The translations under genes were made by a program, and so were the position numbers. Below, piece by piece: positions 386 through 26,697 of a stretch of DNA of 64,000 nucleotides. The notes under the pieces are model-generated. The model did not search any database. It worked only from the letters and a program-made list of their open reading frames with translations, and had not been told where the DNA came from. The stretch comes from Urechis unicinctus (Eukaryota; Annelida; Polychaeta; Xenopneusta; Urechidae), in NCBI GenBank assembly GCA_034190875.2, contig CM067354.1, positions 3,101,942 through 3,165,941 on the forward strand. Reading direction: 5' to 3'. Within the stretch, counting starts at the first letter, position 1. Each line of letters opens with the position of its first letter.

Positions 386-444
<59 letters not shown>

Positions 445-1371: not shown

Positions 1372-1445
1372 GCCTCAGTAGCTCAACTAGTAGAGCGGTC
1401 TTCTCGGTAAACCGATGGTCACGGGTTCGCTTCCCAATTGAGACT
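1372..1445 (+). pseudogene. tRNA-like sequence (tRNA pseudogene or SINE head), copy A
   Basis: The 74-nt stretch has a type-2 internal promoter: an A-box-like TAGCTCAACTAG and a B-box-like GGTTCGCTTCC, with C in place of the invariant A. The acceptor arms GCCTCAG and TTGAGAC pair at six of seven positions, and the D stem GCTC/GAGC is perfect. The outer two T-stem pairs are lost and the anticodon arm pairs poorly, so no anticodon is assigned. It is probably inactive or part of a SINE. Confidence 0.55.
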
Positions 1446-1639
1446 TTTATTTTGCAAAAGTTAAAACGATATTAGTACTGTAAAATGTAAACAAAAACAC
1501 GTGTAGCCGGCGACAGTTTGCTGTTGCCGGTTAAATAGGGTCACTGTCAAACATCGCAACTGATGTTTTGAGGAGACGGTCACACTTTAAAATCCATGCG
1601 CAAACGAATAATATTGTTTTCACTAGGGGTAAAAAATTA

Positions 1640-2389
1640 CGCGTGTAGAACCCGCAGCCAAACGTTAATCATACTCTCACCAACGAGCGCGAAGATTTTG
1701 ACCTCCTGAAACAAATGGGCTTGAGTACAGAGGACCTGATACACATATCCATGACCATGAAGGCTGCGATCAACAAGTTAATTCATATTCTTGTAGCAGT
1801 GGTGATCAGATTCGCCGATGACAGTGACGACACGCGCCTAATTGCTAACATGACGGACACTTCGGACAGCATATTATCCCTTGCAGTCTACGTGGACCTC
1901 AATAGGATATCGGACAAGTTCCCAACACTCGAAGAGGTGAACTTGGCGACCTCAGAATTGAGTGACTGCCCGCAACGTGTAGATTCGCTGATCATGCCGA
2001 CCACACACTCTATGTCGGACACCGAGGCTAACAGAGAAATACTACAAAAAACACTTACTCAGAATATACTGTCCGAGCACATGCAATGCGTTCCTATACC
2101 ATCCCCTGTCGAGAATGACGGGCCCACCACTAGGTGGTATGCTGGATGAGATTACCAATCACACTCCCATCCCAGTGGCCATACACAGGCACGACGAGGT
2201 AATAGAAGGCCTCGACTAAGAAGTTCGTCTCGGCGTGTTGGAGGAATTACTCATCGGCACACCGGTGACAATGTGTCACCGCATGGTAATCTGCGCAAAC
2301 AAGAGCGGCAAGCCGCGACGCACCGTCTACTTCCAAGCAGCCTTGAACTAGGATGCGTTCCGTGAGACCCACTTCACTTATTCCCCATA
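1640..2389 (+). pseudogene. Ty3/Gypsy-type pol remnant (protease-RT linker and start of RT), copy A
   Basis: An open stretch (ATG at 1715, stop at 2147-2149, 144 codons) followed by a frame containing stop codons resembles the region between the aspartic protease and reverse transcriptase of Ty3/Gypsy polyproteins. Recognisable pieces are the segment ending ISDKFPT, a TEANRE block, and after 2190 a run with ELLIGTPVT, CHRMVIC and KSGKPRRTV. These are the typical entry into the RT domain. In-frame stops interrupt the RT part (for example after GLD and after AALN). The homology stops at 2389, where a TIR element is inserted, and I could not find the rest of RT, RNase H or integrase beyond it. 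It is a dead fragment. Confidence 0.8.
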
Positions 2390-4183
2390 TATATGTTATG
2401 CGCTATCGACCGATTTGCGCCATCGATCGATAGCGCTGCGCTATCTATGGATCCGTCGTAAGCGCAAGCATCGGTAGATCGCGCTGCGCTATCAATCGAT
2501 GGCGCAGGCAGATCGACGGATTGTATGTCTATTTTTTATAATGACAATGTTTTTTTTTTAATTTCAGGATGACGCCAAGTGCTGTTTAAGGGACACCTCA
2601 TCGATTTTTCTAAAAATTGCCCGTTTAATTACCATTTTCAATGTAAATATTTATGATAAATTCAATACAATTTTATCAATTGATAGTGATACGATGAAAA
2701 ATTATGAGTTCCAATAAATTGGTTGTAGTGTAACGTTGACCAGTGTCTACCAAAGTCCAGCTGCTTCTCTAGTTAACTTCTTTTTTTTGGGGGATCTTAC
2801 TGTGGTGCAGAAACACACATCAGTATTAGGCATTAAAATAGTATAATTGTTGCATGTATGGTTTGAAGAGGCCTTTACCGGGAGCACCCGTGATCACGTC
2901 TCTGGTTGTTTCGCATAAACTTTCGGCAATTTTACCTTCATATCTGATGCTCATTTTTATAATCCTTCATTCTACCTGTTGGTAACTCTGCTAGTCTATC
3001 TAATCGACCGTTTGTTTTACAATTTGTGCTTTACTTATCTCGCCAAAAAATGCCCCACATCCGAGCTCCCTGAGGGCATGGAAACTTTGCTTTTAATTCC
3101 CCCCCTTTGGCTTAATGACATCTGTGTCAAATACCTCAAGTTTGACACCTTCCTTGTGAGACGTGAGTTCCTCTCAGTCCGATCCGGGAGTCTGATAAAC
3201 AATGAATTATTTGTCAAACAATCGTTAATCGACAATTATCACGCAATGTGCATGTTTATTTGGCAGTTTCTGTAGGCACACAATTTGTTATAACTGTTAT
3301 TATTGAGCTAAGTTACCGGTGCCAATGTGTGTCCTGGTTAGATAAGAAGAAAGAAAAGGAAGATCAGAACATACATATGAAGCCAATTTACTTCTTTAAA
3401 GCACATATTTTTACAACAAGAGAGAACGGGAAATTGACACTGATCATGAATTGGTTAGATTCCTCAAAATTATTCTTCATTTAATGCAGGTCGTCTTGGA
3501 AATATCAAACTGCAAAAAAAGTAAGTAAATTTAGTGAAATTTGTGATGTACTACATAGTAGCCTATTAAGGGGTGAAGTTAAGAGAGTATAGGGCTTATC
3601 ATGCTTATAGCTTAGTAAAACTAAGAGACCCGTTTATTAGATTCCTTTGTTACCTTTAGTACAACATCGTCACTAAATCTCCCATGCAAACTCATCAGTT
3701 TCCCTTTAAAATCATCTCAAGATGCAACAAGCATACGACAAAACCATGTTGAGGCCTGCAGTTCCGCTTTAAATCTAATCCTACATGACCCACGAACTAT
3801 CGATTGATAGCGCAGCGATCTACCGATGCTTGCGCTAACGACGGATCCATTGATAGCGCAGCGATCTACCGATGCTTGCGCTAACGACGGATCCATTGAT
3901 AGCGCAGCGATCTACCGATGCTTGCGCTAACGACGGATCCATTGATAGCGCAGCGATCTACCGATGCTTGCGCTAACGACGGATCCATTGATAGCGCAGC
4001 GATCTACCGATGCTTGCGCTAACGACGGATCCGTAGATAGCGCAGCGATCTACCGATGCTTGCGCTAACGACGGATCCGTAGATAGCGCAGCGATCTACC
4101 GATGCTTGCGCTAACGACGGATCCGTAGATAGCGCAGCGCTATCGATCGATGGCGCAAATCGGTCGATAGCGCATAACATATA
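2390..4183. mobile_element. TIR element carrying a 46-bp minisatellite, copy A
   Basis: The left end (2390-2510, starting TATATGTTATGCGCTATC) is the inverted complement of the right end (about 4040-4183, ending GATAGCGCATAACATATA). The match covers the GCGC/GATC-rich palindromic part and one 46-bp unit. The interior (2520-3790) is AT-rich; its longest frame (98 codons from 2979) has no recognised domain and is probably not coding, so the element looks non-autonomous. It interrupts the Gypsy RT fragment. No clear target-site duplication can be assigned because the flanks are TA-rich. Confidence 0.7.
3794..4142. repeat. 46-bp minisatellite in the right TIR, copy A
   Basis: About seven and a half near-identical 46-bp units contain GATAGCGCAGCGATCTACCG, CTTGCGCTAACGACGGATCC and a variable CATT or GTAG joint. 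A single inverted unit sits in the opposite TIR near 2455-2500, so the array grew inside one terminal repeat. Confidence 0.9.
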
Positions 4184-4654
4184 GATATTCGATTTTCCTA
4201 TTCTTGAATTAAACAGTCTTGTTTCATGGAGATTTGGGGGCTTGCCTAAGGAGACTATTCATATCCATCTTCAGGGGCTGAACATTCACTTTCAGACCTC
4301 TGGCTCTCAGAGTGAGCGCATGTTTTTTTTCCACACAGTTTCAGTATTTCTTTGTTCCTCACTATCTGCAACTGCATGAGTACACATATGGAGATTAAAG
4401 TAGGCCTACAACTAAGCCTTTTACACTTATCAGCTGTGATAATAATAATAATAATAATCAATAATTCATTATTTGGCAATTGGCTGCGAACATACCTGTG
4501 ACTGTTCCTGGTGTCGTCGATGTGTTGTTGTCTTGACCTTGGTTGCAAGTCATATCTGAGTTTATGATGTGGACGCTTGGTTGTTGGAGTTTCTGGAGGT
4601 TTCGGGATGTCAAACAATATCGAGATAGCTCTTACTGTCTTTGGCGTTGGGTTG
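4184..4654. other. Unassigned sequence between two TIR elements
   Basis: There is a short ATT/AAT run at about 4438-4458 and a 146-codon minus-strand frame running through it with no recognised domain. I do not support a gene here. The stretch is absent from copy B. Confidence 0.5.
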
Positions 4655-5024
4655 CGGGTCAGTTCGCCCCCGCCGGGACGGTACGCTCCCCCCATTTACA
4701 GAAAGGAATATTCTGAATGCTACATATTTCATTTCATTATAGGGAACAGTATAAATGAATTTATATCTGTTGATATGAAATAAATATAAAACATAATGTC
4801 TACCGACCAGAGAGGCTATACACCGAACCATCGTCCCCGGATGGAGTGTTGTAAGGGCGTGTGGACTCGGTGGCCAAGGCAGAACGATATGCCCCTTGAA
4901 CAAAACGCGTACAGATACGGAAACCGAGCACCAGAAGATTGTATGGTATGTTTTAATTATGTCAGTAGCATATTATGTTATAATTGGTGATTTATAAAAA
5001 CCAGTAAAACACACAAGCACAAGA

Positions 5025-5340
5025 ATACGAAGTACAAGAATACGAAGTAAATAGGGGAGTACGAACTTAACGCGCACACAATAATACGTATAACCCAATT
5101 CAACTCGGGCTCTTCATTCAACTCTTATAAAACAAACAAAACAACAATACGAAGTGAATAGAGGAATATGAACAAAAACGCACACATAATTCAAAACGCA
5201 ATACAACTCGGGCTCTTTATTCAGCATTCATTAAACAAACATGGCAAGACTACAACAATAGAGGAATATGAACTAAAAGCTCCCACAGGCAACTCGGGCT
5301 CTTTATTAAACATTCATTAAACATACATCAAAACAAACAT
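5025..5340. repeat. About three diverged ~100-bp tandem units
   Basis: Each unit contains AATACGAAGT or a relative, a GAGGAATATGAAC-like block, and ACTCGGGCTCTTTATTCA followed by CATTCATTAAACA. Divergence between units is much higher than in the 56-bp array next to it. Confidence 0.7.
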
Positions 5341-5427
5341 GATACAAGTACATTCATAAAATAACGCAACTGCATTTTGCAGGTTGAAGTAGATAGGCTG
5401 AGCACGTGGATACGATCAAAGTGCTCT

Positions 5428-5745
5428 GCGACGTGACACGTGGCGAGTTGTGAGCGGGAAGCGTCTTGAGTACAAAGAACATCGCGACGTGACACTTGGT
5501 GAGTAGTGAGCGGGAAGCGTCTTGAGTACAAAGAACATCGCGACGTGACACTTGGTGAGTAGTGAGCGGGAAGCGTCTTGAGTACAAAGAACATCGCGAC
5601 GTGACACTTGGTGAGTAGTGAGCGGGAAGCGTCTTGAGTACAAAGAACATCGCGACGTGACACTTGGTGAGTAGTGAGCGGGAAGCGTCTTGAGTACAAA
5701 GAACATCGCGACGTGACACTTGGTGAGTTGTGCGCGGGAAGCGTC
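5428..5745. repeat. 56-bp minisatellite
   Basis: Five to six near-identical 56-bp units each contain GCGGGAAGCGTCTTGAGTAC and AAAGAACATCGCGACGTGAC. Because 56 is not a multiple of three, long open frames on the minus strand are repeat artefacts that cycle through all frames. Confidence 0.92.
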
Positions 5746-6175
5746 AAGAATGCTGTGATCATTAACAACACAGGAGTGAGCCAGACTAACTACAGTTTTG
5801 CTATCATGGACCAGCTTAGAAAGGCAGCCGACGAGGGAAGTCTAAACTGGTGGATAGCTTAGGCTGTTCGTATTGCCTGAAAAATGAGGGCCCTACTACC
5901 GCGTTGATGACAAGAGGCACTTTTCGTCCCCGCCCAAGCTGGCTATCATGCCCTGGCCGCCGAGTCCAAACGCCCTTACAACACTCTATCCGGGGATGAT
6001 GGTGCGATGTATGGTTTCTGTGGTCGGTAGACATTATGCTTTATATTTATTTCATATAAACAGATATAAATTTATTAAAAACTATTCCCTTATTAAATGC
6101 AATATGTAGCATTCAGTATATTCCCTTCTGTTAAACGAGGGCGTATCATAGCGTGGGCGAATTGTCTCGGGGGTG

Positions 6176-7362
6176 TACTGACCCGGGGGTGACTCTGTCC
6201 CTGGTGTTGTCTGTCATCAAAATGTAACCTACACATGACATTGCTCTTCCTTATTCTCTTTGTAAGTTGCTCTTTACTGTCATTATTTCTTGTCTTGAGA
6301 CCTTCTCTTCATGCATTCTGTATCCATTGTTTACATCTTTAACCCGCCGTACAGATAACAACTGGACTATCAAATGACAAAACAATCCGCATCCCTCATC
6401 GGCGAGTCAGCCGTTAGGCTTAATATGTCTACCTTCTTGATTGTGAAAGCGGGAATGCGGAACTACAACTTCAAAATTTGAACTTTGTGCTCCTAATCCG
6501 AATATCTGATCTTAACATACATAATTTGCGATTTAAATTACAATCGCGATGTACTGTTATGTATATATATAGAAAAATATTCTTTTTCAGTTAATATTCA
6601 TCACTTTCCAATAACGGTGTATAGGATATATGATCTGATATTTTCTTTTCATAATTTTGGACCCTTGTGTAATGTTTTAACCTAACCCGGATCCCGTAAA
6701 TAAGGTCACCAAAACATCATTGAGCTTTGTATGACCTAAATATTAGGTTATTACAAATATATTACAGTGAAACCTAATATCACCAATAATAGATGATAAC
6801 CGAATACTTTGGATAACAGCTTTTACGCAAAGCTAATTGATGTGATATATCTTTGCATATAGATACAAATAATAACTAGTTAAAATAGAATAATTGTATG
6901 ATCGAGAATTATTTTATTCGGCGATGGCAAGCTTGTTTACACATTCATGTCATATAGCACCTCCATCGATACAATAATTCAGAGATCACATAAACCAATA
7001 TGGACAAACTCCGCATGCTAGTGGAGCTGAGATGCATGCACAAAAGAAAAGTCTACAAATATAGCCCCCTGGGAGAAAATCAAGGAGAACTGTTGGCAAA
7101 AAACGACACATGACTCGCAAAATCTAACAAGCTGTTTGAAATGTACCAAGCTCAGACACAAAATGAACTCGGTACTGCCATTGCAAGATTAAATTAACCA
7201 ACAAGCTCGCGAGATGAGATTACGTAGAAATTCCATAGGCAGGTTTCCATATATCTACGTATGTTATGTCATGACAAATGAGACAGATACCATGTGTAAT
7301 ATATGCTGATATTATACAAGAGACTACTTCCAACAATTTGTTTATCGAAAACAACATAGTGA
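6176..7362. other. AT-rich non-coding stretch, probable 3' UTR and downstream flank
   Basis: No open frame with coding character was seen. On the minus strand this lies downstream of the stop codon at 7363. An AATAAA motif on the minus strand (6913-6918 on the plus strand) could be a poly(A) signal about 450 bp past the stop. Confidence 0.4.
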
Positions 7363-8164
7363 TTAAACTGTCATGTTGAACAGTTTAGATTGTGTTTTTT
7401 TCCGGTATGCCTTCCTTTCGTTGAATATCTTTAGCTTAAGTGTCTTGATGGCCTTTGTTGGTGACTTGGGCAGAACGGGGAGGGTGCTCAAGTTTTTTTC
7501 AACGAAGTCCATCAGTGCTCTTTTGCCTAGAACATTCAAAATCATTCCATTATCATAAAAGAATTTCGCACGTTTTGGTCTGGGTAATAGTATAGGAGGA
7601 CTATATGTTACTTGGTAATGGCCCTTGATTTGCATCACCATCAGCATGTATCGTAGACTTGAAACAAGTGCAAACAAGAGCTGTCTCCTCGTTCGTCCAT
7701 TTCTTGTACGGTCGCGCTGAAACAATACATTAGCAAAGAGTTAAAACGGCTGCCTCGTGCCATGTAATATCTCGAAATGTTCTCAGGAGGAGAGAGGAAG
7801 GAGATTCCATGAGAATTTCGATCAGTGGACGAAGTTAACGCGTCTTATTTGACTCCGGAAATCGAATTAGCATTTACAGGTTTTTTTTATTCGGTTCATT
7901 AAGCTTGGTCATCAAAATGGGGTATTATAGTCACGAGCTCGTCATAAAGTTTATGATCAATACGGTATTCACCTGGTGCCTTCTTTGAAGATGAGGCTGG
8001 CTCCTCATCTGTACAAATATCAAGATATGTTATATATTAGCCTGAATAATGGTTATTGCCTGTCTTAATCGGGTACCTAATAAGTATTGACTAACCAACT
8101 GGACTGTCATCTTCTGTGTACGAAGGTATATTTTCAGATGATTTCGGTCCGATACCTGATTCTG
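7363..8164 (-). CDS. C-terminal exons with SANT/Myb-like motif
   Basis: Four exons, 8164-8096 (69 bp), 8008-7973 (36 bp), 7716-7612 (105 bp) and 7526-7363 (164 bp with TAA stop), all join in phase 1. The first two encode acidic, Ser-rich linker. The third encodes RPYKKWTNEETALVCTCF, a SANT/Myb-like helix start with Trp and acidic residues, and ends GPLPS. An 85-bp intron (7611-7527, GTAACA...TTCTAG) joins it to KRALMDFVEKN and a Lys-rich end, KAIKTLKLKIFNERKAYRKK. A continuous 120-codon frame through the small intron exists but breaks the SANT part, so the spliced model is preferred. Confidence 0.68.
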
Positions 8165-11100
8165 CTGCATATAATTGCATAATGGTGTACGCATTCGCTT
8201 AGGCAATCACAGCAAACATTGAAATTCGCTTTAGAATTCATATAATTGCGCTTGCTTTCAGAATATCTCAGTCCATTTTGTAATATGTATCACAAGTAGT
8301 TTCGTCAAAGTGCACTGCATCCATATCAAAGTATCCTTGCAATTGATATTCCGGTTTTCACCCCACCCCCCCCTCCCCTAATACTATAACACTTGAACTT
8401 TACCTGCTGAGTTTCTACTTGAATCAAGCGGCGATGCTGGCGATGCTAGCGATGCTGGCGATACTGTCGATGCTGGCGATGCTGACGATGCTGACGATGC
8501 TGACGATGCTGACGATGCTGGCGATGCTGACGATGTTGATGATGCTGTCCCTGTATACACATTGAACGATTTTATAACATCACTCTCAAGTCGGAATTTA
8601 TTATTTTTTATAATAAAGGAGAATATTGCTATAACTAACCGTCGATTTTTCGGAGGTATCCCCCTACTGCAGTAATCTCTTTGATTGCTGTGGGACATTG
8701 GTAAATCAATTCATTGATTTCACCCGAATGGCCCATGTGCTGAAAGAAGGCTTTCCTTTCTGTCTCCGAAACCTCTTCGAGAGCATAAAGGGTAGAAGCC
8801 CGGTGTCTGAACTTGGTAGCAGTTAGGAGATGGGGGCTTTTGCAGTCTGCTTGGATCACGACTTCCCGTACGCTGGCCCATCCATCTGCATGCAAGAGCG
8901 ACCCCTGTGTCCTGGGGAAGACAAATTCGTTGTTTGGGTTGACTCGGCATTCCGTCCGGCAATCCAGCAGCAATTCAATTCCCCTGATAGTATCATTGGG
9001 GATTAGTATTGGGACAAGTTTTTTGCCTTTACCAGCTTGGTAAGCCAACTTGTGGCCATCGAGGAGTGACCTGTCGTTGGGGTCGACGGTTTTTATATGG
9101 GATGCGTTTACCCACACATTGTTCCTCGCATCTTCCCATTCCTTCACTTTGAGCCTCGCTGGTTCTCCTCCCCTTCTGGCATTATAAAGAGTCAATCTTG
9201 TTACTAGTAACGACCGAAGTTTATTAAATTCTCGCGCATCCCACATGATATATTGGTCATTGGTCATTGTGCTTATGGTGGTAACAATGTGCGCTTTGAG
9301 CTTAGAAACATCTTCCTCGTTGGGAAGTTGACTTGGTTTGCGTAGAACCTCTTGTCTTTTAGTATCAATAAGCACCTGGCTTCTGTAGAACATGAAGTCC
9401 CAGTTGAGATCAAGGACGGAGAGAAATCTATCAATCTCCAGGCTTTCCTCGACTTTATCTTCAACGACAAACTGGCCCTTGAGCATCTTCGCCATTCGCT
9501 TGAGTAGATATCCAAGGTTGAGCTTTAGACCGGCCTTAACTTCTCCTCCTTCCCGTTCTGTCATTTTGTTCAGGGCTTCCTCTAAAATGGGAAATTTTTT
9601 ACGATCAAAAACGTCCCTGCCACATGCTTTTGGGTTGCCTGATATCTGTCGCATTTGAATTATCAGACTAGCAAACCGGCGCATTTCATTGAGCACTGAC
9701 TTTTTGTCACGCTTGATCGCTTTATCCCAAAGGCGTCGGCCAAGCAGAACAACAGCAGGGTCACTGCGACATAATTGTCCGACAGCATCATCACGGAGAT
9801 GGTTCATTACCTCTTGTTGGAATGATGTAGAGGCACCATTGCAAATCTGCAGACTATCAACGGACACTGAGGATTTACCTGGTTGGCATGTTCGTTTGTG
9901 TCTCCAGACGCTGGTTGAACTAAAAAAACCCTGACATCCCCCGCACATCACAAGACGTCCATTCCCTTGGTTTCTCTCTCTTTGCAACTGTCCTCCTTGT
10001 TTCAGAAGTTTTTGGTTGGTCTGGTATATGCCCTGTTTGCGCATATTGTCTAGATCTTTGTTTCGCGCCATTCCAGACTTAGACAACATAGCCTTTACTG
10101 ATGGCTGATCGCTGTGGCGCCTTTTCACATGACGAGCGAATTGAGCCTGCAGTTCTCCACAAAACGGACATGGCCGCCGAGGCTTGATTTTGTGCCCCTG
10201 CAGAAGGTGGATTAAATTATATAAGAGGTTGATCAAATGACACATAAATATATTTCCTGTGATTTACATAGTATTCATGATTCATCAATTGAGATATCTA
10301 CCTGCTCTGGATCAACACTTCGGAATTCTTCGTCGGCGCTCGGACTCGGCACTGATTCGGAGTGAACCAACTGAAGAGCAAGCGGAATTAAAGGTAACAT
10401 CTGTAGAGTGCAGCGATTTACGTAGTATTCATGATTCATGATTCATCAATTGAGAAATCTACCTGCTCTGGATCAACACTTCGGAATTCTTCGTCGGCGC
10501 TCGGACTCGGCACTGATTCGGAGTGAACCAACTGAAGAGCAAGCGTAATTAAAGGTAACATCTGTAGAGTGCAACAATTTACGTAGTATTCATGATTCAT
10601 GATTCATCAATTGAGATATCTACCTGCTCTGGATCAACACTTCGGAATTCTTCGTCGGCGCTCGGACTCGGCACTGATTCGGAGTGAACCAACTGAAGAG
10701 CAAGCGGAATTAAAGGTAACATCTGTAGAGTGCAGCGATTTACGTAGTATTCATGATTCATCAATTGAGATATCTACCTGCTCTGGATCAACACTTCGGA
10801 ATTCTTCGTCGGCGCTCGGACTCGGCACTGATTCGGAGTGAACCAACTGAAGAGCAAGCGTAATTAAAGGTAACATCTGTAGAGTGCAGCGATTTACGTA
10901 GTATTCATGATTCATGATTCATCAATTGAGAAATCTACCTGCTCTGGATCAACACTTCGGAATTCTTCGTCGGCGCTCGGACTCGGCACTGATTCGGAGT
11001 GAACCAACTGAAGAGCAAGCGGAATTAAAGGTAACATCTGTAGAGTGCAACGATTTACGTAGTATTCATGATTCATCAATTGAGATATCTACCTGCTCTG

Positions 11101-14100
11101 GATCAACACTTCGAAATTCTTCGTCGGCGCTCGGACTCGGCACTGATTCGGAGTGAACCAACTGAAGAGCAAGCGTAATTAAAGGTAACATCTGTAGAGT
11201 GCAACGATTTACGTAGTATTCATGATTCATGATTCATCAATTGAGATATCTACCTGCTCTGGATCAACACTTCGGAATTCTTCGTCGGCGCTCGGACTCG
11301 GCACTGATTCGGAGTGAACCAACTGAAGAGCAAGCGGAATTAAAGGTAACATCTGTAGAGTGCAGCGATTTACGTAGTATTCATGATTCATGATTCATCA
11401 ATTGAGATATCTACCTGCTCTGGATCAACACTTCGGAATTCTTCGTCGGCGCTCGGACTCGGCACTGATTCGGAGTGAACCAACTGAAGAGCAAGCGTAA
11501 TTAAAGGTAACATCTGTAGAGTGCAACGATTTACGTAGTATTCATGATTCATGATTCATCAATTGAGATATCTACCTGCTCTGGATCAACACTTCGGAAT
11601 TCTTCGTCGGCGCTCGGACTCGGCACTGATTCGGAGTGAACCAACTGAAGAGCAAGCGGAATTAAAGGTAACATCTGTAGAGTGCAGCGATTTACGTAGT
11701 ATTCATGATTCATCAATTGAGATATCTACCTGCTCTGGATCAACACTTCGGAATTCTTCGTCGGCGCTCGGACTCGGCACTGATTCTGAGTGAACCAACT
11801 GAAGAGCAAGCGGAATTAAAGGTAACATCTGTAGAGTGCAGCGATTTACGTAGTATTCATGATTCATGATTCATCAATTGAGATATCTACCTGCTCTGGA
11901 TCAACACTTCGGAATTCTTCGTCGGCGCTCGGACTCGGCACTGATTCGGAGTGAACCAACTGAAGAGCAAGCGGAATTAAAGGTAACATCTGTAGAGTGC
12001 AGCGATTTACGTAGTATTCATGATTCATTCATCAATTGAGATATCTACCTGCTCTGGATCAACACTTCGGAATTCTTCGTCGGCGCTCGGATCGGCACTG
12101 ATTCGGAGTGAACCAACTGAAGAGCAAGCGGAATTAAAGGTAACATCTGTAGAGTGCAGCGATTTACGTAGTATTCGTGATTCATGATTCATGATCAATT
12201 GAGAAATCTACCTGCTCTGGATCAACACTTCGGAATTCTTCGTCGGCGGCGCTCGGACTCGGCACTGATTCGGAGTGAACCAACTGAAGAGCAAGCGGAA
12301 TTAAAGGTAACATCTGTAGAGTGCAGCGATTTACGTAGTATTCATATTCATGATAATCAATTGAGATATCTACCTGCTCTGGATCAACACTTCGGAATTC
12401 TTCGTCGGCGCTCGGACTCGGCACTGATTCGGAGTGAACCAACTGAAGAGCAAGCGTATCTGTAAGGTAACATCTGTAGAGTGCAACGATTTACGTAGTA
12501 TTCATGATTCATGATTCATCAATTGAGATATCTACCTGCTCTGGATCAACACTTCGGAATTCTTCGTCGGGCGCTCGGACTCGGCACTGATTCGGAGTGA
12601 ACCAACTGAAGAGCAAGCGGAATTAAAGGTAACATCTGTAGAGTGCAGCGATTTACGTAGTATGATTCATGATTCAATCAATTGATTGATGACCTGATAT
12701 CTACCTGCTCTGGATCAACACTTCGGAATTCTTCGTCGGCGCTCGGACTCGGCACTGATTCGGAGTGAGCCCAACTGAAGAGCAAGCGAATTAAAGGTAA
12801 CATCTGTAGAGTGCAACGATTTACGTAGTATTCATGATTCATGATTCATCAATTGAGATATCTACCTGCTCTGGATCAACACTTCGGAATTCTTCGTCGG
12901 CGCTCGGACTCGGCACTGATTCGGAGTGAACCAACTGAAGAGCAAGCGGAATTAAAGGTAACATCTGTAGAGTGCAGCGATTTACGTAGTATTCATGATT
13001 CATGATTCATCAATTGAGATATCTACCTGCTCTGGATCAACACTTCGGAATTCTTCGTCGGCGCTCGGACTCGGCACTGATTCGGAGTGAACCAACTGAA
13101 GAGCAAGCGGAATTAAAGGTAACATCTGTAGAGTGCAACGATTTACGTAGTATTCATGATCATGATGATATCTCATGGATCAACATTCGGAATTGACTCG
13201 GCACTGATTTCGGAGTGAACCAACTGAAGAGCAAGCGGTAATTAAAGGTAACATCTGTAGAGTGCAACGATTTACGGACATGATTCATGATTCATCAATT
13301 GGATATCTACCTGCTCTGGATCAACACTTCGGAATTCTCGTCGGCGCTCGGACTCGGCACTGATTCGGAGTGAACCAACTGAAGAGAGCAAGCGGAATTA
13401 TTAAAGGTAACATCTGTAGAGTGCAGCGATTTTTTCATGATTAGTATTTCATGATTCATGATTCATCAATTGAGAAATCTACCTGCTCTGGCACTGATTC
13501 AGTGAACCAACTTCGGAATTCTTCGTCGGCGCTCGGACTCGGCATTGATTCGGAGTGAACCAACTGAAGAGCAAGCGGAATTAAAGGTAACATCTGTAGA
13601 GTGCAGCGATCTTTACGTAGTATTCATGATTAATTCATGATTGAGATAATTGAGATATCTACCTGCTGGATCAACACTTCGGAATTCTTCGTCGGCGCTC
13701 GGACTCGGCACTGATTCGGAGTGAACCAACTGAAGAGCAAGCGTAATAAAAAGGTCAATTGAGATCTGTAGAGTGCAACGATTTACGTAGTATTCATGAT
13801 TCATGATCATTCATCAATTGAGATATCTACTCTGCTCTGGATCAACACTTCGGAATTCTTCGTCGGCGCTCGGACTCGGCACTGATTTGGAGTGAACCAA
13901 CTGAAGAGCAAGCGTAATTAAAGGTAACATCTGTAGAGTGCAACGATTTACGTAGTATTCATGATTCATGATTCATCAATTGGGATATCTACCTGCTCTG
14001 GATCAACACTTCGGAATTCTTCGTCGGCGTTCGGACTCGGCACTGATTCGGAGTGAACCAACTGAAGAGCAAACGAAATGATAGGAAACATCTGTTGAGG

Positions 14101-17100
14101 GCAACTATTTACATGAAGTATTCATGCTCCATGTGATCAATTCAGATATCTACCTGCTCATGGTCAACACTTCGGGCTGCATCGTCGGCGCTCGGACTCG
14201 GCACTGATTCGGTTCGAGGCAACTGAAGAGTAAGCGGAATTAAAGGTCGTCTATTCAGTAAACACATTTATTAATGATTCATGTCATCATTTGTTATGAT
14301 TCCAATTAACCAACTATGAAATGTGCTATACCGGATGTCTCGCTCGCTTTATCGCAACCTTCCTCTTCGTTGCTTGGGTGTTGAGATCTTTATTTCGTTT
14401 CGTGAGCGTGGTTTTATAGCTTTGCTGTGCCTGCAAATGTGCCTGTTGATTTTCAGGGCTTATTGTTTTGCATCATGTTCATTGATGTGTATATATCACT
14501 TGAAAAGTTATAGTTTTTGTCAATCCTTTCCAAAATTGTACAAAACAAATGGTACATTATCACTACAGTGTATAACCTTATCACTACATTAATCTCCCGA
14601 TATTGTGGGCGTTGCCTTAAAGCTAATAGCGTGTCCAAGTTATTGGAGCTGGCTTGCACTTGCTGTGCACGTGAAGTGGGATGCATGAATGGATTATTAC
14701 CTTTTTGTGCCGAGGAAGACTTTTCACGATATGGCTGTATGTTAGCTCATCACCTGGGAGCAGATTTCTTTTTGCAAAAAGACACAGATGCGGCCTACCG
14801 TTGTTCACAACGACCTTAACGGTAGAGCTAGGTCTTGGTGAGTCTTTGACCATTCGACCAAACCTGTCGTTAGCCTCGGAGCCGTCGATGCTGTTAACAG
14901 AAGTTACACTAAATTGATAAGAAAACGCACATCTGTAATCGAATTTAGCAATACCTAGCACAATTTGCTTTTCTGACAATCTAGCAGCAGTAGTGATAGT
15001 TGTATCAGAAGTAGTAGCACAATCAATAGTGGAGGTATAATTAGTAGTAGTATAAGTGGTAGTTGTATAAGTGGTGGTGGTGATAAAGGTCATGATGGTG
15101 GTAGTGGTGGTGGTGACGGCGGTGGTTATGATGTCGGTGGTGGCTGTGGTGGTTGTGGTGGCAGTGGTGGTGGTGGTGGTGGTGGTGGTGGTTGTGGTAG
15201 TGTTGGTGGCTGTGGCGGTGGCTGTGGTGGCGGTGTTTGCGGCTCCAGCAGCAGCAGCAGTAGTAGTAGGAATAGAAGCACATGGCGCAGTACTTGTATA
15301 AGATGAAGTGCGATCGGTATTAGCCAGTCGTGCGATCGGTAGATCAGTATTAGCCAGTCGTGCGATCAGAAGTAGCCAGTCGTGTGACCGGTAGTAGCCA
15401 GTCGTGTGACCGGAAGTGGCCATTCGTGTGACCGGTAGTAGCCAGTCGTGTGACCGGTAGTGACCATTCGTGTGACCGGTAGTAGCCAGTCGTGTGACCG
15501 GTAGTAGCCATTCGCGTGACCGGTAGTAGCCAGTCGTGTGACCAGTAGTGACCATTCGTGTGACCGGTAGTAGCCATTCGTGTGACCGGTAGTAGCCAGT
15601 CGTGGGACCGGTAGTAGCCAGTCGTGTGACTGGTAGTAGCCAGTCGTGTGACCGGTAGTGACCATTCGTGTGACCGGTAGTAGCCAGTCGTGTGACCGGT
15701 AGTAGCCAGTCGTGTGACCGGTAGTGACCATTCATGTGACCGGTAGTAGCCATTCGTGGGACCGGTAGTAGCCAGTCGTGGGACCGGTAGTAGCCAGTCG
15801 TGGGACTGGTAGTAGCCAGTCGTGTGACCGGTAGTAGCCAGTCGTGTGACCGGTAGTGACCATTCGTGTTACCGGTAGTAGCCAGTCGTGGGACCAGTAG
15901 TAGCCAGTCGTGTGACCGGTAGTGACCATTCGTGTGACCGGTAGTAGCCATTCGTGGTACCAGTAGTAGCCAGTCGTGGGACCGGTAGTAGCCAGTCGTG
16001 GGACCGGTAGTAGCCAGTCGTGTGACTGGTAGTAGCCAGTCATGTGACCGGTAGTAGCCAGCCGATGGAATATAATGTCCCCGTTTGGTTGGGTTTTAGA
16101 AGTCACTCAAAGACTCACTTTAATCTACAACTTCTATTAAGCCGTCAAAGCAGAGGAACGGCCTTGGGAAAAGAATGTAGCCAGGATGCGTCGAGAGCAT
16201 GATCAAGAGCCATAATTTAATGGCGAGGGCAGAAGTACACCCACCATAGCTCCATTCGGGGAGTCGTACTGGAGAATGTCCTGCTCCTCGTATGGCCCTC
16301 CATATATACTTGTCTCGGGAATCTTCCGACTGGTCGTACCACTAAACGTAAGGTAGTGCAACTGATTGGGAGAGGTAGTGACTGGTCGAACTACGGATCT
16401 TACGACTGGTGGCAACATCAATCGTCAGGTGGCACGACCAGATGCACAACCATTCGTGCGACTGATTGACCGACGGTCATACACGACTCATTGTACAACC
16501 ACGTTAGACCTGTGTGCGATTTTCGAATCGCAAGGCAGAAGTTTTGAACAATAACCATCGACCTTGCGATCACCTACGACCATTCGCGTGCTCTTCCTAC
16601 GATTTTCCTGCGATTTCAATTTTGTTCGGTTGTAGCTAGGTCGTAACATGGTCGTAAGCTCGGTGTGACTGGGCCTTAAAGAGCAACCTGTCACAACTTA
16701 ATGATATGCGGTGGAGGTAGGGTTCTCAGAGGTCAGTTGCGGTCAATCACCAGTTGGGTGAGCTGAAGCTGGGTGGGCTTACATGCGTCTAGTAACTGCC
16801 CTTAATTATGCTGCTGATTCTGGTCCATATAATTCTAATACATGTCTTCTTTCCGGAAATGAGAAAATAAAACTAATTTATCACATAATAATGCGCTGAC
16901 TCCAGTAAGTTTAGCAGTTAGTGCATATATCGCATTATTGATACCGCATGATAACCACAACCAACTTTCAATAGTTATTGTGTGTAACTAATTCGCGTCC
17001 GCTATTGCAGAGAAACACACTGATTTCTACGGTCACATTTTTTGACACGGCGTACGGACCTCTCATTGGTTGTCATGCGTAACTTATAAGCTTCCCGAAC

Positions 17101-17803
17101 AAGCGACCAATCTCGCGACCCGAGTCCGCTGCAACTTGCACTCCTACTGCTACATACGTGTCATTCTATCAGGGTGTTCATATTATTCTGACCGGTACTA
17201 AAATTAGATGATTGATCTCACCAAAAATCCTTGCCTTCGTGGGAGAAGTAGAACATATATCCTTCGATCGATCTTCTGTCTCTCAGCGCCGCCTCATTTG
17301 CTGTTAGAAGCGTTCCCGAAAACTCCATCACAAACTCTCCCATTGCAAAGGGTTTAGTCAGGAACACGCCATAACCTCAAATCAAATGATTATTTGATAC
17401 ATGTTCGTTTTTGCCACTCAACAACCGTATCCATTAACATTGCTGATTAAAAGAGAATAGTTTTTCACAAAATTATTCTTTTTTTCACCTAACTGGACGC
17501 GATTTTCCCCAAAAGTTATCCTACCATAGTACAAAAAATATCAGGAAAAGAGTTCCTCGTATATACATTTACATACCATCATGCTCAGCAATATATTTCT
17601 GCTCAAAGCTGCTCTTGTCCACGCTTAAACCGCACCACATTACTGCATCTTCCAACGGTGTCTTTCTTTTCTAAAACAAATAAAAACATCGATGCATTCT
17701 TGTAGATGATTCCACAAATTTTTGGGGTCCAGAAAAACAAAGACTGCCCGTGCTGATTTCCTACCTTTTTCACTGTTGCCTGCTGCTCAATGCTTTTCCT
17801 CAG
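7363..17803 (-). CDS. Composite gene: SET domain, tandem repeat exons, zinc fingers, tyrosine-recombinase-like domain, SANT-like tail
   Basis: Exons were chosen by splice sites and phase. On the minus strand they are 17803-17765, 17670-17577, 17375-17222, 14890-14701, up to 25 repeat exons between 14221 and 10302, then 10197-8640, 8550-8404, 8164-8096, 8008-7973, 7716-7612 and 7526-7363 with a TAA stop. Every junction is GT-AG and every phase matches (0, 1, 2, 0, all repeats 0-0, then 1 at each later joint). The product would be a SET methyltransferase-like domain joined through an acidic repeat region to a zinc-finger and tyrosine-recombinase-like module and a SANT/Myb-like C-terminus, probably nuclear and DNA-bound. 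The true N-terminus upstream of 17803 was not found. SET plus recombinase in one transcript is inferred from phase and order, not proven. Two separate transcripts remain possible. Confidence 0.72.
8404..8550 (-). CDS. Ser/Ala-rich exon built from 9-bp repeats
   Basis: Acceptor GTATACAG, donor TCAGCAG|GTAAAG; 147 bp, phase 1 at both ends. It is almost entirely GCATCGTCA or GCATCGCCA type 9-bp repeats encoding Ala-Ser-Ser and Ala-Ser-Pro, a flexible linker. Because it is phase-symmetric, repeat-length changes and exon skipping both keep the frame. Confidence 0.75.
8640..10197 (-). CDS. Zinc finger plus tyrosine-recombinase-like exon
   Basis: A 1558-bp exon runs from an acceptor CTTCTGCAG|GGGCAC to a donor ATCGACG|GTTAGT. 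Without splicing it reads to a TAG at 8635; upstream codons to 10245 look intronic. With residues numbered from the ATG at 10245, finger 1 is C26/C29/H39/H44 and finger 2 is C101/C104/H116/C120. A long helical region follows, then recombinase boxes: Arg in NARRGGEPARL (357/358), Lys in GKGKKLVPI (406-409), Arg480 and His481 in TKFRHRAST, His506 in HMGHSG and the candidate nucleophile Tyr515 in LIYQCP. The first His of the HxxR box is Thr here. It resembles a domesticated or transposon-derived tyrosine recombinase, and DNA binding is likely. Whether it still cuts DNA is unknown. Confidence 0.88.
10198..10301 (-). other. 104-bp intron between repeat array and recombinase exon
   Basis: Donor CAG|GTAGATATC belongs to the last repeat unit and acceptor CACCTTCTGCAG belongs to the recombinase exon. 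Both sides are phase 0, which is the link that places the array and the recombinase in one frame. Confidence 0.65.
10302..14221 (-). repeat. Tandem exon array: about 25 units of ~154-163 bp, each with one 69-bp exon (minus strand)
   Basis: Units start (plus-strand left edge of the exon) at 10302, 10463, 10624, 10778, 10939, 11093, 11254, 11415, 11576, 11730, 11891, 12049, 12212, 12374, 12536, 12705, 12866, 13027, about 13175, 13311, 13483, 13673, 13832, 13993 and 14153. On the minus strand each has a TTGCTCTTCAG acceptor, a 69-bp phase-0 exon and a CAG|GTAGAT donor, separated by 85-92-bp introns. The exon encodes 23 residues, LVHSES then VPSPSADEEFRSVDPEQ. Seventeen units are intact (one with an in-frame extra Ala). 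Eight between 12049 and 13900 have indels or a lost donor. The unit first in transcription (14153) is the most diverged but intact. Several substitutions between units are synonymous. Confidence 0.85.
14222..14700 (-). other. Intron between SET exon and first repeat exon
   Basis: The span is 479 bp, with a GTAATA donor and a TTACTCTTCAG acceptor on the minus strand. Weak frames on both strands show no recognised domain. The matching copy B intron (25601-26078) is nearly identical. Confidence 0.6.
14701..14890 (-). CDS. SET domain C-terminal exon, copy A
   Basis: Acceptor TTCTGTTAACAG, donor CACAAAAAG|GTAATA; the 190-bp exon enters in phase 2 and leaves in phase 0. It encodes IDGSEANDRFGRMVKDSP, then NNGRPHLCLFAKRNLLPGDEL, then TYSHIVKSLPRHKK. 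This aligns with the second half of KMT5A-type SET domains. The normally invariant NHS triplet (cofactor pocket) reads KDS, and the ELxYDY motif reads ELTYSH, so methyltransferase activity is doubtful. It is followed by a 479-bp intron and then the first repeat exon in the same phase. Confidence 0.85.
15055..15262. repeat. (TGG)n/(CCA)n trinucleotide tract, copy A
   Basis: A GGT/TGG-rich simple repeat lies inside the 2.3-kb intron that splits the SET domain. It gives artefactual poly-Val (plus) and poly-Thr or poly-His (minus) frames. Confidence 0.92.
15320..16066. repeat. 22-bp minisatellite, copy A
   Basis: About 33 units of 22 bp (GTCGTGTGACCGGTAGTAGCC type, with alternating CAGTCG and CATTCG variants). 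Three units equal 66 bp, so an open frame with a 22-residue period (YRSHDWLLPVTR) persists on the minus strand. It lies inside the SET-splitting intron. Confidence 0.93.
16067..17221. other. Intron remainder, copy A
   Basis: This is the 5' part (minus strand) of the intron between the two SET exons, 14891-17221. Between 16200 and 16560 a few diverged GACTGGTCG or GACCATTCG words echo the minisatellite. No exon was recognised. Confidence 0.45.
17222..17375 (-). CDS. SET domain N-terminal exon, copy A
   Basis: The exon enters in phase 1 after GATTTGAG and leaves in phase 2 at TTTTTG|GTGAGA. The translation begins GYGVFLTKPFAMGEFVMEFSG, the SET motif I region (GxG followed by the GEF strand), and continues to a GYMFYFSHEGKDF strand. 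The length and order match the KMT5A/SET8-type SET fold. Joined to the next exon it reads DFCIDGSEAND, the usual CIDA-like junction. Copy B has a net 3-bp insertion in the GYMFYF part that keeps the frame. Confidence 0.85.
17577..17803 (-). CDS. Pre-SET exons (39 bp and 94 bp), copy A
   Basis: Exon 17803-17765 follows a CCCTTTGCAG acceptor and ends AAAAAG|GTAGG; it encodes 13 residues (LRKSIEQQATVKK). Exon 17670-17577 follows TTTGTTTTAG and ends GATG|GTATGT. It encodes about 31 residues, including WCGLSVDKSSFEQKYIAEHD, the usual lead-in to a KMT5A-like SET domain. A frame in the neighbouring intron also reads through from an ATG at 17944, and a possible upstream exon there does not match phase, so the 5' end of the gene is unresolved. 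Confidence 0.6.
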
Positions 17804-19828
17804 CTGCAAAGGGACCACATTAATAATTACATATAAAATGTTTATTTCGAAATAATATTCTTTATAAATCGATTGAATATCAATATTACCAGGAATATAT
17901 ATGATAGGCAATGCACCAACCATTCGCTTTCCCCTGCTCAGCATTACTTCTGTAAGATTTCAAAATAATATTTTAGCATGTGGCTTTCAGAGAATAATAA
18001 TCTATCATAGTTAACGCGATGGTAGATGGACCAAGGATCAATCCCAAACTATGACCTAAAATGTATAGATTGTCCAGTGACGAATATTTTCTTCAACCAC
18101 AGTCACTGATATTATGATTAAATAGAGACGGAAATTATTAATGTTTATCAAGTTTTCTAATAACGCTTCGTGCAAAAATTATTTAAGCTAGACAAGTTGC
18201 GTATTTACTTATATGGTGACCTGCGCAACACTTATTATATGATGGGAAAACAATTCATAAAACTGGCTGAATTTCGTTTTTGTACAGTTTCTTTATCAAA
18301 GATAGACATAATAGTATTAATGCGTTGTAATGTGGCGAAGTAAGAGGACTAAGACCTGCTCTTTAAAATATTAACCATGCGTCAATTTATAAGTGTGAAT
18401 CCAGCTAATGTCGTTAAAAGTTGTGTTGGGCTGGCTGAAGTTACTATGCTACTGACCCAACAAAGATGATAAATCGGCGCAAAACTATCAAGCCGTCATT
18501 TGTACTGGTAGTTAACGATTAACTCAGGCTTTTCCCACCCAACCACAAAAAAGTGATTATGCAAATGAAACTTCAAGTTTGCATCCAGTCGATGTAAAGG
18601 CGATGGCCAGGACAGGCACTTTTATTTATATTAAGGGTTGATTAAAACAGCGTAAAATGGCCATGAGCGCGTATCTTCTTCGTCGCATTACAATGAAACT
18701 TTGTATAGCCTCGCTGAAGTTGGTCGAAATTATGAGTCAAACAATAGTGTGCATACAAGTGTCAAGAGAACTATCGTCAATTTATAGAGGGCAGAGAAGT
18801 TTTATATACGGATCAGAGGAAAAAAGACAAACGTAAAGAAAACCGGAACAAAGAAAGGTTACGAATGTTTGACAAGACGTGGACAACCGGGAAGCTGTGG
18901 TCGGAAGTGGAAGCGATCGATGTTAATTAAATAGCGGCCCACGCTGACTGATGCTAGCCACCATTGACACACGGGGACTTAAGCAAACATCCAATACTGA
19001 GCATCATAGGCTATTTAAATAATACAGATCCATTTGGATATCGATCACAAAACAAATACCCATTGCTACACCTCGCTGTCAAAAACACGTACCTATTGGT
19101 ATACCAGGTCATTGCTAAAAAAAACCCGACCCATTGCTATACATATCTCCAAAAAATAACGACACATTTTGTATTCCAAAAAGCCATAAAACCGACCAAA
19201 ATTGACGGCACATTCCCATTCACCTCCAGATAATGTGAACCACCTTCCCTCCCCCGGCAGGATCTTTACGCGCTTAATGGAGCTGAAAAGTTTCATGGTC
19301 TGTTAAAGCTCTCCCAATCAAAAGTGAGTCTCATTCATTCTAGGGGCTTATATTCGCCCCTTTTGATATCCATATCAAAACTTAAACTCGTTATCATACT
19401 TTGCAATAATTGCAATAACTACACACATATCTTGTCGATGCGTCATCATATAGTATCATCGAATGATAAACACGGATAATAACCCCCAAGCAAACTTGTC
19501 AAAGATCGGTATCTAACAGATGTTAATACATTATTTTTGTCATACCATTTCTCTACCATTCAAACAAAATTGGTCTGCTTGCTTTGAAATCAATTTGCAA
19601 TATAGAAATGCACCATATCGTCGTCAAGCATTATAATCTATTAGTTTTGATAAAAGAGAAATATATTACCAGCTTGTGATCCAAACAGGTAACAAATATA
19701 ATATCCTGTCTTATCAAACTTGTCAGTCAACGACTTCCTTATAACAGCGCGCAATCAAAGCATCATCCGACTGGCATCCCTGTAAAGTGGGCGGGGCCTA
19801 AGTAGTTCAACGTTTCACAACAGGAGGC
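17804..19828. other. Upstream flank of the SET gene, copy A
   Basis: AT-rich sequence with short frames on both strands. A minus-strand segment 17889-17948 has a good acceptor (TCTTACAG) and donor (CCTG|GTAATA) but its phase does not fit the next exon. A plus-strand 89-codon frame from 18964 is conserved in copy B only because the copies are nearly identical. The promoter and start of the gene were not identified. Confidence 0.4.
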
Positions 19829-21150
19829 TAAAGCACATTTGAAGTTCATTTATCTCGTATTTTGCTGTAATTTGTGGTTTTATAGGGCGAGAACGGCATA
19901 TACTAATTGAGCAAATATGACCTTTATTCCAATCAATACAACCTTATGTTCACTATTTGTTTTTTTTCGGGGTTTTTGTGTTGGTCAATGTGGCATACTT
20001 CCTCGCACATAGGCAAATATCAACGAGCATTAGCATACAGATATATGACACAACTAGCGTATTACAATGTAAGCAATATTAAACAGGTGTAAGACTTACT
20101 GTAGCCATTATATTGATGTTTTATCGATCACTCATTTCTATTTGACGCATTATTGAATTACCATAAACTCGTTAATATTAGACATCTGTTCCAGGTTTGT
20201 GCATTAATACTCAAGTCAATCTGGGCATAATTAATGCCAAGCACAGTCCTTGAAACATGCGAGATACGGGTACAATATACTTAATGTCACCTGTTATAAA
20301 AACTCCAAAGAATAAATAACCGCAAACAAGCAATAAGTTGTAGTATGAATAAGGTAGAACTTGTAGTCGGGATTATGTGGAATAGGCGGGCAAATGATTG
20401 CATGCGACTAATGTAATATCGTGCTGCACCTTGACATTAAATTTGTCCACAAATATCTCTTTCGCGCACGATATCAATTCCACGACAAACTATAGCATAA
20501 GTAAACGAGTAAGGACAATACGCGATGTCTGTATTAACGGCCATTCACGCATTCATGGAATTAAATTCATAGCATACATGGTTCACTGCAAAGTCGTTTG
20601 TCAGCTTTATCGCTACCCACCGACAAGCCTTTTTTTCAAAATAATTGCTGGGTGGTCAACGGATTGTGCTTGTGATTTGTTTCATGCCAAACAGTATTGT
20701 TCATTAGAGACACGCCCTCTTGTGTAACAATCGAAGGCATTGGCGCATACAGTGCTAACATCGTACTTCAATATTAAATGATTAGATTGTTGTATCGCAA
20801 CTCCATAGACGCTTGCAGATGATGTGAAGAAGTCTTAAATAGTTACTTAGAACTAATAAATACTACCTGCGTAGCTGTATTCAAATGTTTGGCAGAATCC
20901 TATTGTCAAAGATCACTAATGATGTAATCTTAAATATGACGAAACAAGTGCATTAAACCAGACATTTGTTCTTTTCAAAAGGGGGATTATTAGGACTAAC
21001 TAACGGACGCAGACAATGAATGTCTCATTTCAGGTAAAGTTTCCAAGTTCCTTACATGTGACGAAAGCTACAGGAGGCTTCACCTTGACACGCCAACAGA
21101 TTAACGGCTATGATATATATTTATATATATATATAAATATATATATATAT
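19829..21150. other. Unique spacer between duplication copies
   Basis: About 1.3 kb present only once, between the end of copy A and the start of copy B. The longest frame is 109 codons (20398, plus) with no recognised domain. It ends in a TA-rich tract (21112-21150) beside copy B. Confidence 0.55.
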
Positions 21151-21438
21151 AACTCTTTTTCCCGGTTTAGGGCGACCGCTTCAATAAGCCGCATTAGGGC
21201 GACTGGTGATATATCTCTTAATTACCAATTTTTTTCAAAAAACAATCCACAAATGCATTATTGGACGTCATATAACCCCTATTGTCAAATATGAGAAGTT
21301 TATGTGAAATATTGGGAGATATACGACTTTTGGTCGGTCGCCCTAAACCAACATCACACATATCCACGCATAGGACGACCGCTGGTTGCTGTTGTATATC
21401 TACAAGCTTAGGACGACCGCTGTGTTCTGTAGTAAAAC

Positions 21439-21719
21439 CCCGGGGGGGGCACTTGGCCTTATTCTGGATAGGGGTGTGCCGCGGGACCTAAAAAACCCGT
21501 ACCCGTCGTACAAGGTCAAAATGGCCAAAAGCATACCCCGTCGTACAAGGTATTATGCGAATGTATAACCCCTCGTACAGATTGAAGCTCAAAAACATAC
21601 CCCGTCGTACAAGTATGAGGCCAAAAAACCCGTCGTACAAGTCAAGAGGCCGAAAAAACATACCCCGTCGCGCGGCACATATGTACTACCTCTATACCAT
21701 TAAGTGCCCCCCCCCCGGG
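21439..21719. mobile_element. 281-bp non-autonomous TIR element (MITE) with 8-bp TSD
   Basis: It is bounded by CCCGGGGGGGGCACTT at the left and AAGTGCCCCCCCCCCGGG at the right. It is flanked by a direct AGTAAAAC (21431-21438 and 21720-21727). Copy A has the empty site with one AGTAAAAC (about 766-773), which proves insertion. The interior has four to five degenerate repeats of CCCGTCGTACAAG, each followed by AAA-rich sequence. An 8-bp duplication fits hAT-like or P-like transposases, but the TIR is not diagnostic to me. Confidence 0.9.
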
Positions 21720-22327
21720 AGTAAAACCTCCGCATAAGGGCGACCGAACTACCAAGCTATCTTCTCATAGTCATAGTTCTGCTGAGTTGCTTCATAAAAC
21801 TACGATTTAAATGGTTTCATCGAGTTAATTTAATTGAATCTACAGGCGCTATCGGCAAACAATGATTTCATGACCCTATTACTGAAATACAATAATGATG
21901 CGCAACCTCCACGTTAGATATCGAGTCACGGGTTGTTGATCATGGATGGGGTGGGGTGGGATGAGGGGTTGATATGCGTCGTTCAATATAGGGTACAGCG
22001 GCTGGCTTTGTTATGTGATGCAGGCCTTCATATTGTTCGATTAAACAGAAATATCTACCTGACCCTTGCTCCGCTGGGTGCGGGTTTGTGTTAGCGCTAG
22101 TTTTAGCCAGACCAAGCCTCCGCTGAGATGGTCAACACGGCGAGTCGCTAATGCGTCACCGGTGTTGGCGGGAGAGAGGTGTACATATACAAATACCCTC
22201 CACACATGACAGAGGAGCCTTAGGGTGAATTGTAGAGCCGCAGTAGAAGTGGCACGATCGGAAAGGGGTGGAATGTAGCATGTTCTTAAACTATATAAAC
22301 GAAAGTGTCTGCAATAAATAATCGTCG

Positions 22328-22401
22328 GCCTCAGTAGCTCAACTAGTACAGCGGTCTTCTCGGTAAACCGATGGTCACGGGTTCGCTTCCCAATTGAGAC
22401 T
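22328..22401 (+). pseudogene. tRNA-like sequence, copy B
   Basis: Same as the sequence at 1372-1445 except for a G-to-C change in the D stem (GAGC to CAGC), which breaks one further pair. This supports it being non-functional. Confidence 0.5.
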
Positions 22402-22579
22402 TTTATTTTGCAAAAGTTAAAACGATATTAGTACTGTAAAATGTAAACAAAAAACACGTGTAGCCGGCGACAGTTTGCTGTTGCCGGTTAAATAGGGTCA
22501 CTGTCAAACATCGCAACTGATGTTTTGAGGAGACGGTCACCATGCGCAAACGAATAATATTGTTTTCACTAGGGGTAAA

Positions 22580-23337
22580 AAATTACGCGTGTAGAACCCG
22601 CAGCCAAACGTTAATCATACTCTCACCAACGAGCGCGAAGATTTTGACCTCCTGAAACAAATGGGCTTGAGTACAGAGGACCTGATACACATATCCATGA
22701 CCATGAAGGCTGCGATCAACAAGTTAATTCATATTCTTGTAGCAGTGGTGATCAGATTCGCCGATGACAGTGACGACACGCGCCTAATTGCTAACATGAC
22801 GGACACTTCGGACAGCATATTATCCCTTGCAGTCTACGTGGACCTCAATAGGATATCGGACAAGTTCCCAACACTCGAAGAGGTGAACTTGGCGACCTCA
22901 GAATTGAGTGACTGCCCGCAACGTGTAGATTCGCTGATCATGCCGACCACACACTCAATGTCGGACACCGAGGCTAACAGAGAAAATACTACAAAAACAC
23001 TTACTCAGAATATACTGTCCGAGCACATGCAATGCGTTCCTATACCATCCCCTGTCGAGAATGACGGGCCCACCACTAGGTGGTATGCTGGATGAGATTA
23101 CCAATCACACTCCCATCCCAGTGGCCATACACAGGCACGACGAGGTAATAGAAGGCCTCGACTAAGAAGTTCGTCTCGGCGTGTTGGAGGAATTACTCAT
23201 CGGCACACCGGTGACAATGTGTCACCGCATGGTAATCTGCGCAAACAAGAGCGGCAAGCCGCGACGCACCGTCTACTTCCAAGCAGCCTTGAACTAGGAT
23301 GCGTTCCGTGAGACCCACTTCACTTATTCCCCATAGA
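22580..23337 (+). pseudogene. Ty3/Gypsy-type pol remnant, copy B
   Basis: Matches 1640-2389. The ATG frame runs 22661-23095 (144 codons). Two compensating indels near 22985 change a few residues relative to copy A. The same in-frame stops interrupt the RT entry region, so the damage predates the duplication. Confidence 0.8.
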
Positions 23338-26640: not shown

Positions 26641-26697
26641 GTGGTAGGAATAGAAGCACATGGCGCAGTACTTGTATAAGATGAAGTGCGATCGGTA

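Follow-up and report, generated by a model that had tools for sequence, protein, structure and literature searches.

A tandem array of exon-like 161-bp units in a predicted SET-recombinase-like gene of Urechis unicinctus

We analyzed a stretch of 64,000 nucleotides from the annelid Urechis unicinctus (C13:3101942-3165941 on contig CM067354.1; genome 1.19 Gb in 926 contigs). This whole stretch is called the window, and positions are given within it. Its minus strand carries a predicted gene which joins a SET domain to a region with zinc-finger-like motifs and a weak similarity to tyrosine recombinases, and a tandem array of 25 units lies between the two parts. In the order of transcription, the predicted exon chain, whose phases match by reading, and the array are as follows.

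17765-17803, minus strand: short predicted exon (39 nt) upstream of the SET domain.
17577-17670, minus strand: predicted exon upstream of the SET domain.
17222-17375, minus strand: predicted exon with the first half of the SET domain.
14701-14890, minus strand: predicted exon with the end of the SET domain, in phase 0 before the array.
10302-14222, minus strand: tandem array of 25 units, each with a 69-nt exon-like block and about 92 nt of intron-like DNA, delimited by repeat finding and unit listing.
14154-14222, minus strand: first block of the array, the most diverged one, in frame, LPRTESVPSPSADDAARSVDHEQ.
12049-13900, minus strand: stretch of the array to which the six frame-shifting units and the donorless unit are all confined; a cluster of private indels and possibly an assembly error.
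10302-10370, minus strand: last block of the array, with the consensus peptide LVHSESVPSPSADEEFRSVDPEQ.
8640-10197, minus strand: predicted exon after the array, with zinc-finger-like motifs (recognized by eye) and a weakly Phage_integrase-like region.
8404-8550, minus strand: predicted exon of 147 nt, mostly 9-nt Ser/Ala repeats.
7973-8008, minus strand: predicted acidic/Ser exon of 36 nt.
7601-7716, minus strand: predicted last exon (KWTNEE), with a TAG end read by eye.

When joined, the exons that precede the array match the Pfam SET family (E 7.3e-15) and structures of KMT5A/SETD8, with E 5.6e-17 for the best PDB match. In the alignment, the exon 14701-14890 has KDS at the position of NHS in the SETD8 chain, and an NHS-type cofactor motif is thus missing. 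As this type of motif matters for the cofactor of SET domains, the replacement by KDS suggests that the domain may not be an active methyltransferase. For the exon after the array, the Pfam Phage_integrase match (E 0.0021, 18.3 bits) is below the cut-off of 27.1 bits. There was no PDB match at E 1 and only a single NCBIfam match, which was weak and well under its cut-off. A single-sequence fold with a mean predicted local distance difference test (pLDDT) of 36 was too poor for use. The exons 7973-8008 and 8404-8550 are both short and Ser-rich or acidic, and the 9-nt repeats of the latter are a second predicted coding repeat in the gene. The long open reading frame (ORF) 14623-16095 was rejected as a coding candidate because outside the SET exon it consists mostly of 22-bp and ACC repeats; it was read as intron.

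The array, which an earlier reading of the DNA letters (the sequence-only reading) had described as a minisatellite with units of about 160 bp, is real. Its 25 units are arranged head to tail, and each is headed by the acceptor CTTCAG/TTG, from plus coordinate 14222 for the first unit to 10370 for the last, whose block ends at 10302. A typical unit consists of a block of 69 nt with an open phase-0 frame, a GTAGAT donor, and intron-like DNA of about 92 nt in total that leads to the next CTTCAG acceptor. Tandem Repeats Finder gave a period of 161, with 18.1 copies at 10273-13166 and 4.5 copies at 13510-14247. The consensus peptide is encoded exactly by 14 of the 25 blocks, two of which (11798 and 11161) carry a single synonymous change. 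Among the ten clean units, the mean number of differing columns is 1.25 at a spacing of six units and 1.0 for the single pair nine apart, compared with 4.17-7.22 at other spacings. This pattern is pointing to block duplication.

The splice sites were scored with weight matrices entered by hand from general splice-site frequencies. The unit donor CAG/GTAGAT reaches 6.6 bits, and the four other scored donors of the gene, measured at the equivalent motifs in a neighboring duplicate (copy 2, described below), reach 6.5-8.4 bits. It lies at the 97.9 percentile of the 3592 GT sites on the minus strand of the window. The unit acceptor scores 7.28 bits; the 99.6 percentile is that of the acceptor of copy 2. 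As its score is within the range of the other donors, the unit donor is ordinary, not strong. Hence, the claim that every intact unit carries an acceptor, a 69-bp exon and a strong donor stands for the composition, with 16 of the 25 blocks having exactly 69 nt between AG and GTAGAT, but not for the strength of the donor. An AG acceptor and a GTAGAT donor, and so a complete exon with both splice sites, are predicted in 24 of the 25 units.

The phase agrees as well. The SET exon ends in phase 0, the block has 69 nt, and the following exon starts in phase 0, so that the block is symmetrical and fits its neighbors. Since the block and both flanking exons meet in phase 0, intact units would be free to be included or skipped. 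Dinucleotide-preserving shuffles of the unit, considered on both strands, contained an open phase-0 exon that scored equally well in 11 of 5000 cases; with both scores relaxed, the count rose to 80 of 5000 at 1.5 bits and 364 of 5000 at 3 bits. The proposal of a phase-0 exon is thus supported by both flanking exons and by the shuffles, and the unit quite probably originates from a real exon. A different explanation is that the array is an intronic minisatellite, perhaps from a once-used exon, whose whole length is removed when the SET exon is joined to the recombinase-like exon; its resemblance to exons would be a relic or luck. The rarity of matching shuffles speaks against it, and the splicing machinery would have to ignore 24 cassettes scoring like the gene's own sites.

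Not all units keep the reading frame. In addition to the 16 blocks of exactly 69 nt, one block of 72 nt and one of 81 nt keep it, giving 18 of 25 in frame. Six blocks are off frame (13900, +1; 13729, -2; 13378, -1; 12774, +1; 12605, +1; 12116, -1), and unit 13223 has no GTAGAT-type donor. Hence, the claim that any number of units can be used without a frameshift is limited to the intact ones. With the 18 in-frame units alone, translation of the joined frame gives a protein that is open through to the recombinase-like exon. All frame-breaking indels are located within 12116-13900. In the 13 units at 14061-12116, there are 13 indels in exons and 24 in introns, no two of these 37 being alike, next to about 23 private substitutions, whereas the exon blocks of the ten clean units at 11959-10531 are free of indels and their introns have a single 7-nt deletion, which is shared. 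As the frame-breaking indels are private, clustered, and part of an indel-rich stretch, they may be assembly errors, such as a poor consensus of an unpolished repeat would produce; alternatively, an older part of the array may truly have decayed. Six frame-shifting units among 24 spliceable ones would also suit cassette or poison exons: the units would then enter minor isoforms only, the frame-shifting ones would turn off the recombinase part, and array length would tune the output of full-length product. We consider this unlikely, because each frame-shifting indel is private to its unit and all of them lie in one stretch, and because indels outnumber private substitutions in the shifted half, as they do in a poor consensus.

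The 69-nt block occurs in at least nine further places, on C5, C16 (two), C8, C12, C15 (two), C10, and C7; such counts on other contigs are lower bounds. These relatives carry one to three units each, fragments apart, compared with 25 in the window array; copy 2 has three and a fragment. Five of the nine, L009-L013, have the recombinase-like exon behind the block (only part of it in L012), and L016 has a decayed SET exon ahead of the block. The low unit numbers and the shared neighborhood indicate that the unit and its placement are older than the expansion of the array. L010, L011, and L013 retain the donor that follows the recombinase-like exon. For the KWT exon, L010 and L013 retain the acceptor, L011 has a changed one that is still AG, and L014, L015, and L017 have lost it. 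L013 also retains the acceptor and body of the 36-nt exon. In 13 distinct units (10 from other contigs and three from the window, near-duplicates L011 and L015 omitted), AG and GT are each present in 11 and both in nine. Divergence from the majority in these units is 0.119 for the exon and 0.192 and 0.161 for the intron parts, but 0.042 for the donor stretch from -3 to +8. This conservation of the donor is again unfavorable to an intronic minisatellite. One further stretch, 10 nt into the exon, is as well kept as the donor.

Selection was assessed on the recombinase-like exon with four aligned copies over 428 codons. The window branch has 33 private synonymous and 10 nonsynonymous changes, a ratio of nonsynonymous to synonymous divergence (pN/pS) of 0.08. 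The other three copies gave 0.62 (L009), 0.66 (L010), and 0.42 (L013), with six new stops among them. The value of 0.08 means that the array-bearing gene is under strong purifying selection, and the window copy is the only one of the four measured that is strongly constrained. Across five relatives, with near-duplicates L010 and L011 both included, the recombinase-like ORF has codon-position counts of 162/100/314 and a pN/pS of 0.26.

Taken together, we favor the following explanation, with confidence that is evenly balanced: an old phase-0 linker exon has recently multiplied in that member of a SET-recombinase gene family which is under constraint, and it is probably used at least in part. 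The unit would be this short linker exon with its flanking intron. Ancestrally, it would have been present in one to about four tandem copies, numbers which are themselves seen in the relatives, at loci in which a KMT5A-like SET domain is joined with a region resembling zinc fingers and tyrosine recombinases; all of these loci would once have been SET-recombinase genes. In the window gene, the observed number of about 25 units, with its block pattern, would have arisen by unequal exchange or block duplication. At least some units are probably spliced in, given that their splice-site scores are comparable to those elsewhere in the gene, and the inclusion of several units in the mRNA is predicted with about even confidence. 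The six frame-shifting units would be either assembly errors or skipped. The units would encode up to about 18 times 23 residues of an acidic Ser/Pro linker that is probably disordered. The stronger form, in which each 161-bp unit acts as an additive cassette exon and the number of near-identical acidic repeats in the linker, from zero up to about 18, depends on germline array length together with splicing, is rather less likely than not.

Several observations weigh against the use of the units as exons. Inclusion of all 24 spliceable units, six of which shift the frame, would lose the frame and lead to stops. The comparison of synonymous and nonsynonymous changes which the sequence-only reading had suggested as a check did not indicate protein constraint for the block. 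Against the array consensus, the blocks of 12 distinct units (10 from other contigs and two from the window, with the same near-duplicates omitted) differ by 44/36/39 at the three codon positions (pN/pS 0.87); over all pairs, the counts are 402/306/286 (pN/pS 1.13). Compared with the ORF and its pN/pS of 0.26, the codon-position counts differ with a chi-square P of 4e-5, the counts not being independent. Two of the 12 blocks contain an in-frame stop, and the nonsynonymous divergence of the block is above that of all 494 ORF windows of 23 codons. Substitutions in 12 relative units, including two near-duplicate pairs, are similar in exon (125/827, 0.151) and intron (57/424 and 87/596, 0.134-0.146); indel events number six in the exon and 3 and 21 in the two intron parts. 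The first units of L014 and L015, which have GAAGAT and thus no donor GT, and two truncated units of L012 were left out of the counts. Moreover, the relatives were retrieved with the exon as the query, which biases the comparison towards a conserved exon. Finally, other minisatellites (46, 56, 22, and 495 bp) are found at 3799-4139, 5428-5745, 15347-16061, 24724-25097, 26725-27439, and 36943-38116, so that the locus appears to expand repeats generally.

Protein constraint would be a supporting rather than a strictly defining feature of a repeated exon because disordered linkers may evolve freely: a disordered linker that needs only openness, or a non-coding repeat, would each fit the divergence of the block. 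An intronic minisatellite would account for the unconstrained block, for the equal substitution of exon and intron, for the frameshifted units, and for the 22-bp and ACC-rich minisatellites in the neighboring predicted intron. With the shuffles, the scores, and the conserved donor on the other side, we regard it as possible but somewhat doubtful. What remains of the proposed exon array is the phase fit, a block older than the array, a constrained gene, and other short Ser-rich or acidic exons; it is weakened by the unconstrained block and by the broken frame upon full inclusion.

The gene is part of a larger duplication. The region 436-19828 is tandemly and recently duplicated at 21109-31213, and copy 2 lacks 4140-13708, which leaves a 46-bp array joined to the 161-bp array at a single point. 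It is therefore a copy of the SET gene without the zinc-finger/recombinase-like exon, and one of its three units has a relative-like intron.

25096-25625, minus strand: short repeat array of copy 2 (three units and a fragment).
26079-29184, minus strand: SET exons of copy 2, without a zinc-finger/recombinase-like exon.

In about 8.6 kb of aligned flank (three stretches), 42 substitutions and 20 indel events separate the copies, which is near allelic levels in a diverse animal. This level and the clustered private indels would agree with an array length and a neighboring copy that are in part assembly artefacts, from unresolved haplotypes or an unpolished repeat. We consider this very unlikely, as the copies lie about 20 kb apart in one contig, with an intervening 1.3-kb stretch without a long match elsewhere in the window, the two arrays of copy 2 meet at one junction, and the clean block shows shared variants and a higher-order pattern.

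Further upstream, 34946-43539 contains long stretches similar to L009, L012, L013, and L016, indicating that the duplicated units extend far upstream of the gene. A YqaJ viral-recombinase domain is found in the minus-strand ORF 33388-33747 (Pfam E 5.1e-7). A transposon was considered on account of an edge at 6340 common to four loci and was dropped because the similarity between loci continues past the edge. No shared pair of mobile-element ends was found in the stretches compared, and similarity to other loci is scattered over 986-43539. Viral contigs gave five pattern matches and no relative by tblastn.

If units are spliced in, the array would be an unusually compact case in which VNTR (variable number tandem repeat) mutation and alternative splicing act on one module, and its near-identical competing exons could reveal how splice sites are chosen among equals. 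The locus would also represent a family of genes combining a chromatin domain with a recombinase, with strong constraint, among the four copies measured, only in the expanded one.

With KMT5A/SETD8, the gene shares the SET domain by sequence and differs by KDS for NHS and by the zinc-finger/recombinase-like region that follows. Among the matches listed in a search of open-licence papers, no title or abstract describes a SET-recombinase fusion with repeated exons. The exons of the Dscam arrays are diverged. They are tandem duplicates within one gene, as the units would be, and are used in a mutually exclusive manner (PMC1397879), whereas the window units hardly differ from one another and their inclusion could be additive. 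Short exons in strings are also found in schistosome micro-exon genes, where they have 3-81 bp and introns up to 5 kb (PMC10526429), but these are not a homogenized minisatellite. In human segmental duplications, internal tandem repeats differ in copy number between recent paralogs, as the array does, and the coding cases are mostly in frame and lengthen low-complexity parts; type 1 units of morpheus have 57 and 69 bp and reach 39 copies (PMC2812944). Those repeats stay inside exons or at exon-intron edges, whereas the window unit would be an exon of its own. The LPA KIV-2 VNTR has a unit of 5.5-5.6 kb whose two exons encode a kringle, and its copy number has been measured at the protein level in people (PMC4378929, PMC11201333). 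It is likewise an intragenic tandem unit holding whole exons and introns, with near-identical units that form subtypes, and its coding copy number varies; the window unit has 161 bp and one 69-nt block, a predicted exon. Thus, the array most closely resembles exon-containing VNTRs and paralog-specific internal tandem repeats; each of its units is far shorter and contains one predicted exon.

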